Assembly: GCA_036377595.1 (NCBI GenBank)
Contig: DASUYB010000037.1
Location: 1 to 64,000, forward strand
Direction of reading: 5' to 3'
Length of the DNA: 64,000 bases
From: Longimicrobium sp.
GTDB taxonomy: Bacteria; Gemmatimonadota; Gemmatimonadetes; Longimicrobiales; Longimicrobiaceae
Below, piece by piece: positions 38,534 through 60,566 of this stretch. Within the stretch, counting starts at the first letter, position 1, and each line of letters begins with the position of its first letter. Both the position numbers and the translations under genes were made by a program. The notes beneath the pieces were generated by a model that saw only the letters and a program-made list of their open reading frames with translations, made no database searches and was not told the DNA's origin.

Positions 38534-38794
38534 TCAGCACGTCGTGTTGCAGGATTCGTTGCAGGTCGGATATCCCCACGGGCAGGTGGGGTTGTCGGAG
38601 CAGACGTACGGATCGCACGTGGGCGCGCATGGCTGCGTGTACGTTTCGGAGCAGGCAATCACCATGCTGTTGCAATCGTGCGAGCAGCCGAAATCCGACG
38701 TGTTCGCGTACCCCCGCACCGTCCGCCTCTGCGCTTCCGCCGCCGACGTGACGAACGAATCGACCCGGAGATCCTCGAGCTTCAGCTTCTTCAT
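38534..38794 (-). CDS. pinensin-type lanthipeptide precursor (Cys-rich core)
   Basis: 86 residues from MKKLKLEDLRVDSFVTS, preceded by a GGAG ribosome site 7 nt away. The leader MKKLKLEDLRVDSF is the pattern I know from precursors called pinensin family lanthipeptides in Bacteroidota and Longimicrobium. A likely cut site is RTVRG (residues 24-28). The 58-residue core holds ten Cys among many Thr and Ser (SDFGCSHDCNS, CAPTCDPYVC, CNESCNTTC), as expected for lanthionine rings or disulfides. No LanB, LanC, LanM, protease or transporter gene is adjacent, so modification would have to act in trans. Product and activity unknown. Confidence 0.8.
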   Translation of the reverse strand: MKKLKLEDLRVDSFVTSAAEAQRRTVRGYANTSDFGCSHDCNSMVIACSETYTQPCAPTCDPYVCSDNPTCPWGYPTCNESCNTTC

Positions 38795-38844
38795 GCCGCT
38801 CTCCATCGTAAAGGAAACGTCGCACAAGAAATGGTCACAGAAAC

Positions 38845-60422: not shown

Positions 60423-60566
60423 ATGAAGACGCTAAAGCTGAGCCTCGACGATCTGCGGGTGGAAGGCTTCGAGGTCCTCTCCACCGACTGGGCGGGCGAC
60501 GATGCCGACGCCGCGGCCACGCTCGTCTGCACCGAGAAGCGGAGCTGCGGCCACATTTGCCCGTGA
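60423..60566 (+). CDS. pinensin-type leader peptide, short precursor
   Basis: 47 residues. The leader MKTLKLSLDDLRVEGFEVLS is very close to that of the 38.5-kb precursor (KLKLEDLRVDSF). The core is short and has three Cys (LVCTEKRSCGHICP). A GCAGGAGGACG ribosome site precedes the ATG. It ends shortly before a strong terminator, so it is a monocistronic precursor gene with no modification enzymes beside it. The sequence between leader and first Cys is acidic (DWAGDDADAAA), unlike precursor 1. Confidence 0.7.
   Translation: MKTLKLSLDDLRVEGFEVLSTDWAGDDADAAATLVCTEKRSCGHICP

Follow-up and report, generated by a model that had tools for sequence, protein, structure and literature searches.

Pinensins, for which antifungal activity is known (PMC4662063), give their name to a type of class I lanthipeptides (NF038180; family I 17 of PMC7268733) that is made by a split LanB and by LanCs reported to be related to the cyclase domains of LanM enzymes (PMC7268733). 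For the prochlorosins and synechococsins, one ProcM or SyncM is accompanied by up to 79 precursors in a single strain (PMC9872173), and prochlorosin-type precursor genes are isolated or arranged in tandem (PMC10783134). A further point of comparison is formed by the PEARL/MNIO pathways with TglI or DUF2063 partners (TglHI, 8hci; NGO1945, 3dee). In Longimicrobium terrae, three lanthipeptide-type clusters have been reported, without an analysis of their precursors (PMC7291104), and no earlier account of the precursor expansion described below was found in the openly searchable literature.

Here, we describe a precursor gene in a window of 64,000 nucleotides from the genome of a Longimicrobium sp. 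(G000). As judged by its leader, which matches NF038180, and by a split LanB/LanC cassette, with a LanM-cyclase-like LanC, elsewhere in the genome, the precursor belongs to the pinensin type. It departs from this type in several ways: the precursors are dispersed and number in the hundreds, whereas the pinensin precursor is clustered; their cores are longer, with up to 16 Cys; the exporter of the cassette lacks a C39 domain; and a putative RRE-like module is fused to LanC. With the prochlorosins, the system would share a single enzyme set acting in trans on many unclustered precursors with a conserved leader and a variable core, encoded singly or in tandem, a likeness in which the pairing of enzymes and precursors is deduced. 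It is not a member of that group, however. Prochlorosins have a class II LanM, a Nif11-type leader, GG cleavage, and at most 79 precursors, while we found a class I split LanB, a (G/R)TVx(G/A) junction, and a larger number of precursors. The likeness to the PEARL/MNIO pathways lies in the fold of a LanC extension, which is here fused to a lanthionine cyclase, and the link to MNIO enzymes is one of correlation.

The precursor gene between moaD and udk

The gene was found at the position given in the initial annotation, which had named no strand; it lies on the minus strand, with its ATG at 38794 and its stop codon at 38536-38534 (Table 1). The leader contains the motif MKKLKLEDLRVDSF and carries an RTVRG junction, close to which it is presumably removed; leader and core read MKKLKLEDLRVDSFVTSAAEAQRRTVRG / YANTSDFGCSHDCNSMVIACSETYTQPCAPTCDPYVCSDNPTCPWGYPTCNESCNTTC, with the slash at the presumed border. 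That this leader and junction are of the pinensin type was borne out by NF038180 (NCBIfam, pinensin-family lanthipeptide), which matched the leader with 39.2 bits against a cut-off of 24 (E 4.8e-10); in the search of the genome, its 40.7 bits was the highest score. The 58-residue core C-terminal to RTVRG contains the ten Cys that had been noted, along with 6 Ser and 8 Thr, and is free of Lys and Arg. Searches with the precursor against Pfam and against solved structures gave no match, and neither tandem repeats at the gene nor a sigma-70-like promoter near it were found.

Pfam confirmed the neighbors, with moaA, moaE, moaD, udk, and a gene for an A-type Fe-S carrier flanking the precursor gene, which sits between moaD and udk. 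In those relatives in which udk was found, the 1.5 kb on each side of it contained no moaD and no precursor, so the genomic address of the precursor is not conserved; a conserved moaD-precursor-udk synteny was rejected, as the arrangement was seen in G000 only. The precursor also deviates from its family in its junction (RTVRG versus the usual GTVxG/A) and in its leader, which is 2 residues shorter than most. A homolog with a conserved core was present in the related genome G003, the common stretch being CDPxVCSxNxTCPWGYPTCNE, and pN was lower than pS in both the leader (0.17 and 0.59) and the core (0.33 and 0.60). The NF038180 match, this homolog, and the placement of Ser and Thr at position -5 of Cys (see below) together indicate that the gene is genuine, beyond what chance would give.

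A second, weaker orphan candidate in the window (MKTLKLSLDDLRVEGFEVLSTDWAGDDADAAATLVCTEKRSCGHICP) scored 13.4 bits with NF038180, below the cut-off, and has no GTV junction.

Table 1. Coordinates of the features discussed. Positions refer to the window unless a genome and contig are given.
Feature	Position	Strand	Basis or remark
Precursor gene, pinensin-type, orphan, 86 aa	38534..38794	-	Translation; NF038180; G003 homolog
Leader, residues 1-28, MKKLKLEDLRVDSFVTSAAEAQRRTVRG	38711..38794	-	NF038180 match spans residues 2-28
Core, residues 29-86	38537..38710	-	10 Cys, 14 Ser/Thr
Shine-Dalgarno GGAGAG	38799..38804	-	4 nt 5' of ATG
Second, weaker orphan precursor candidate, 47 aa, MKTLKLSLDDLRVEGFEVLS...CTEKRSCGHICP	60423..60566	+	GGAGG upstream
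C-terminal extension of cassette LanC	G000:C103, L110:11854-12600		About 250 residues
LanC of second enzyme set	G000:C98, L111:2360-4978		LCCG in place of LCHG
Lone MNIO gene	G000:C89:223331-224062 (L227)	-	PF05114
MNIO gene	G014:C451, L230:5594-6598	-	Adjoins two pinensin-leader precursors

The precursor family and the spacing of its core residues

The precursor had been presented as an isolated oddity, a view that the data did not support: a scan of its own genome with the leader pattern found at least 149 dispersed ORFs for same-leader precursors on 49 contigs. This catalog, which required the leader pattern and at least 2 Cys, covers part of the contigs with matches, which makes 149 a lower bound. 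The genes occupy 76 sites, 47 of them single, with 15 precursors on the contigs that carry the enzymes (C98 or C103), and 128 of the 149 precursors have a GTVx[G/A/N] junction. When 61 genomes were searched with a profile built from 51 leaders (A1), at least 134 matches each were found in G000, G001, and G003, followed by G009 (84), G014 (81), G015 (50), G008 (19), G002 (11), G020 (5), and G007 (1); the other 51 genomes gave no match. In a sample of 246 genomes from the class, leader matches beyond the host's family numbered only three. Many precursor arrays of G001 are located at contig ends (C75, C259, C198, C204, C1, and C202), so tandem arrays may break the assemblies there, and the true counts may be higher.

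Upstream of the precursor genes, k-mers showed a G-rich peak 5' of the start, corresponding to the ribosome site, as well as C-rich stretches. A promoter shared by the family was considered and rejected, as words of the CACCTGC type stem largely from tandem arrays, where the end of one precursor gene precedes the start of the next. Rejected as well was the idea that the cores are hypervariable and drifting. Between G000 and G003, 23 reciprocal pairs were found, the pooled pN/pS of the leaders being 0.53 and that of the cores 0.60, and one 25-residue core was identical, a pattern indicating that the products are maintained by selection.

In 132 precursors from G000, Cys accounted for 15.4% of core residues and 0.1% of leader residues, and the number of Ser and Thr was at least that of Cys in 130 of these cores. 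We fixed the Cys residues and shuffled the remaining core residues, with which Ser/Thr proved enriched at -5 of Cys (355 observed versus 186 expected, z 16.8) and at -1 (396 versus 207, z 16.2), and depleted at -2, -3, and +1. Both signals persisted where a second Cys at a spacing of 4 was lacking, at -5 without Cys at -4 (216 versus 142, z 7.5) and at -1 without Cys at +4 (257 versus 163, z 9.2), so they are not merely duplicates of each other. Ser and Thr were each enriched separately, and no other residue tested was enriched to a similar degree. Related cores are not independent, which inflates these z-scores; the safeguard is replication in other genera, obtained with 114 cores of G001, G003, G009, G014, and G015 (z 17.7, 20.9, 6.2, and 10.9 for the four enrichments in the order given above). 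Such a spacing is what thioether rings would need, rather than disulfide bridges or metal binding.

In the precursor between moaD and udk itself, Ser/Thr precede six of the ten Cys by exactly five residues (position -5; mean of 2.6 in shuffled sequences, P 0.013), and its G003 homolog shows the same number (6 of 10, P 0.002). Ser/Thr thus lie N-terminal to Cys at the family spacing, as a ring-forming peptide would have them. By the family rule, we infer the Ser/Thr-x4-Cys rings T32-C37, S43-C48, T51-C56, S66-C71, T77-C82, and S81-C86.

Enzyme cassettes and the extended LanC

The proposal that a dehydratase and a cyclase must act in trans had come with the suggestion to search the rest of the genome for split LanB, LanC, and further same-leader precursors, and the absence of any dehydratase or cyclase would have spoken against it. 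All were present, with split LanB and LanC encoded on contigs C103 and C98, away from the precursor. PF04738 (the N-part of LanB) matched on C98, C103, and C1, and PF05147 (LanC) on C103, C98, and, weakly, C145. On C103, LanB_N (1154 aa ORF) is followed by LanB_C (343 aa, PF14028) and LanC (704 aa), then by nine precursors with the same leader and an ABC exporter. Cassettes of this type are retained in G003, G009, and G015; G001 contains the three cassette enzymes, after which its contig stops.

Proteins of the LanB_N family glutamylate and those of the LanB_C family eliminate, turning Ser and Thr into dehydro residues. The nearest solved structure to the LanB_N of the cassette is 6ec7, the glutamylation domain of TbtB, and its tRNA-Glu-dependent glutamylation is predicted purely by homology (PF04738, 6ec7). 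The C103 LanC and its relatives carry the zinc motifs WCHG and LCHG, and the predicted Cys-Cys-His ligands are those of class I. Its best NCBIfam match was the LanM cyclase model TIGR03897 (245.8 bits, below the cut-off of that model), in agreement with the relationship described for pinensin-type LanCs (PMC7268733).

A second enzyme set is encoded on C98. The LanC of this set has an LCCG motif (Table 1), which has been described for promiscuous ProcM-like enzymes (PMC10783134). Directly before the LanB ORF, 2 Cys-rich precursors (17 and 7 Cys) are encoded, one of which contains an SNCSDC repeat.

The bifunctional protease-transporter that had been anticipated was not recovered, as no C39 domain was found in the ABC exporter of the C103 cassette. 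C39 matches in G000 were located on C17, C13, and C68, none adjoining the cassette, and the precursor-bearing G002 had one weak match only; a C39 protease-transporter was therefore rejected as the leader peptidase. No candidate for a leader protease was found in the G000 cassette.

Among the 61 genomes, those with leader matches were exactly the ten with PF14028, the LanB elimination domain (Fisher P 1.1e-11, with kinship ignored). Within the genus, leaders and PF14028 were both present in 7 of 7 genomes versus 0 of 3, the latter three having neither (P 0.008). G001 and G003 each had one PF14028 match against at least 134 leaders, from which we infer that a single enzyme set serves all leaders in these two genomes.

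The C-terminal extension of the cassette LanC is 47-79% identical in five relatives, and Pfam gave only sub-threshold matches to NGO1945_C and PqqD. An AlphaFold2 model of the extension (pLDDT 79.7, pTM 0.76) matched chain A of the TglHI complex (8hci, 268-269 residues; Foldseek E 2.7e-6; VIA Z 13.3 over 205 residues, 5.2 Å) and NGO1945 (3dee, Z 11.4). Chain A is probably the TglI subunit, since the modeled extension is not a TIM barrel. The last 115 residues also resembled the RRE in the TbiB1-leader complex (5v1v; Z 6.7 over 88 residues, 2.6 Å), lasso B1, and PqqD, although RRE matches at Z 6-7 may by themselves reflect only a common arrangement. We read the extension as a putative fused RRE module for leader capture.

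Proposed pathway and alternatives

With good confidence, we regard the precursor as the orphan substrate of a class I lanthipeptide system with a split LanB, which acts in trans and in a prochlorosin-like manner; the precursors of the genome are most likely processed at a distance by one or two enzyme sets. The precursor, observed to be encoded alone and far from the enzyme genes, would be produced on its own and bound through its leader by the leader-binding domain of the glutamylating LanB protein, by the RRE-like LanC module predicted from its fold, or by both. LanB_N would then glutamylate and LanB_C eliminate, converting Ser and Thr to dehydro residues, to which the zinc site of LanC would join Cys. 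Mainly the Ser/Thr five residues upstream would be used, as the spacing statistics suggest, and several thioether rings would result. The ABC exporter of the cassette would secrete the product, and a protease would cut the leader near (G/R)TVx(G/A). With one or two cassettes serving so many precursors, duplication and change of the core would diversify the products, while the leader stays recognizable.

The initial annotation had left open a Cys-rich RiPP or a disulfide-rich peptide; of these, the former is supported, in that the gene probably encodes the precursor of such a RiPP, and the latter has become less likely. A secreted disulfide-rich or metal-binding peptide, never dehydrated and using a lanthipeptide-like leader for export only, would account for the very high Cys content, for the even number of Cys (10 here, with odd numbers in only 47 of 132 cores), and for the distance to any LanB gene. 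We nevertheless consider it improbable, as it would explain neither the enrichment of Ser/Thr at precisely the -5 and -1 positions relative to Cys, nor the perfect co-occurrence of the leaders with the LanB elimination domain, nor the same-leader precursors adjoining LanC. The gene could also be silent, a relic orphaned by duplication or rearrangement and now neither produced nor recognized, which would fit a neighborhood absent from relatives, a variant junction, and the missing sigma-70-like promoter. This seems very unlikely for an intact frame with a ribosome site and the best NF038180 score of the genome, whose homolog in G003 retains the common core stretch with pN below pS.

Some evidence points to a hybrid pathway, with an MNIO (PF05114) that would also modify Cys and whose partner would be the LanC module resembling the TglHI chain and NGO1945. 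Of the 6 genomes with 50 or more leaders, 5 contained MNIO, compared with 1 of the remaining 55 (P 6e-6, with kinship ignored), and in G014 its gene directly adjoins precursor genes. On the other hand, G001 has both the leaders and the LanC module and gave no MNIO match, the MNIO genes of G000 and G003 are distant from precursors and cassette, and an uncharacterized ORF 3' of MNIO in G009 and G015 could encode the MNIO's own partner. We judge this pathway unlikely, and because of its absence from G001, MNIO is treated as a lead and not as part of the system. Equally speculative, and in our estimate doubtful, is an extended form in which LanC with its TglI/NGO1945-like module would be a shared docking hub, bringing split LanB and, in some species, MNIO to more than 149 dispersed precursors, with a species-specific library of thioether and oxidized-Cys products arising from one machine.

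If processing in trans by the split-LanB system is correct, one class I machine would handle about twice the 79 substrates of SyncM (PMC9872173), the most promiscuous enzyme in the literature we found, and would do so with LanB/LanC chemistry rather than LanM. The predicted RRE-like module of LanC offers a direct and testable reason for recognition through the leader only. Most of the family would escape standard annotation and cluster-based mining, as only 9 of the leaders in G000 were flagged above the NF038180 cut-off. The conserved -5 spacing, in turn, would allow ring positions to be predicted for every member of the family.
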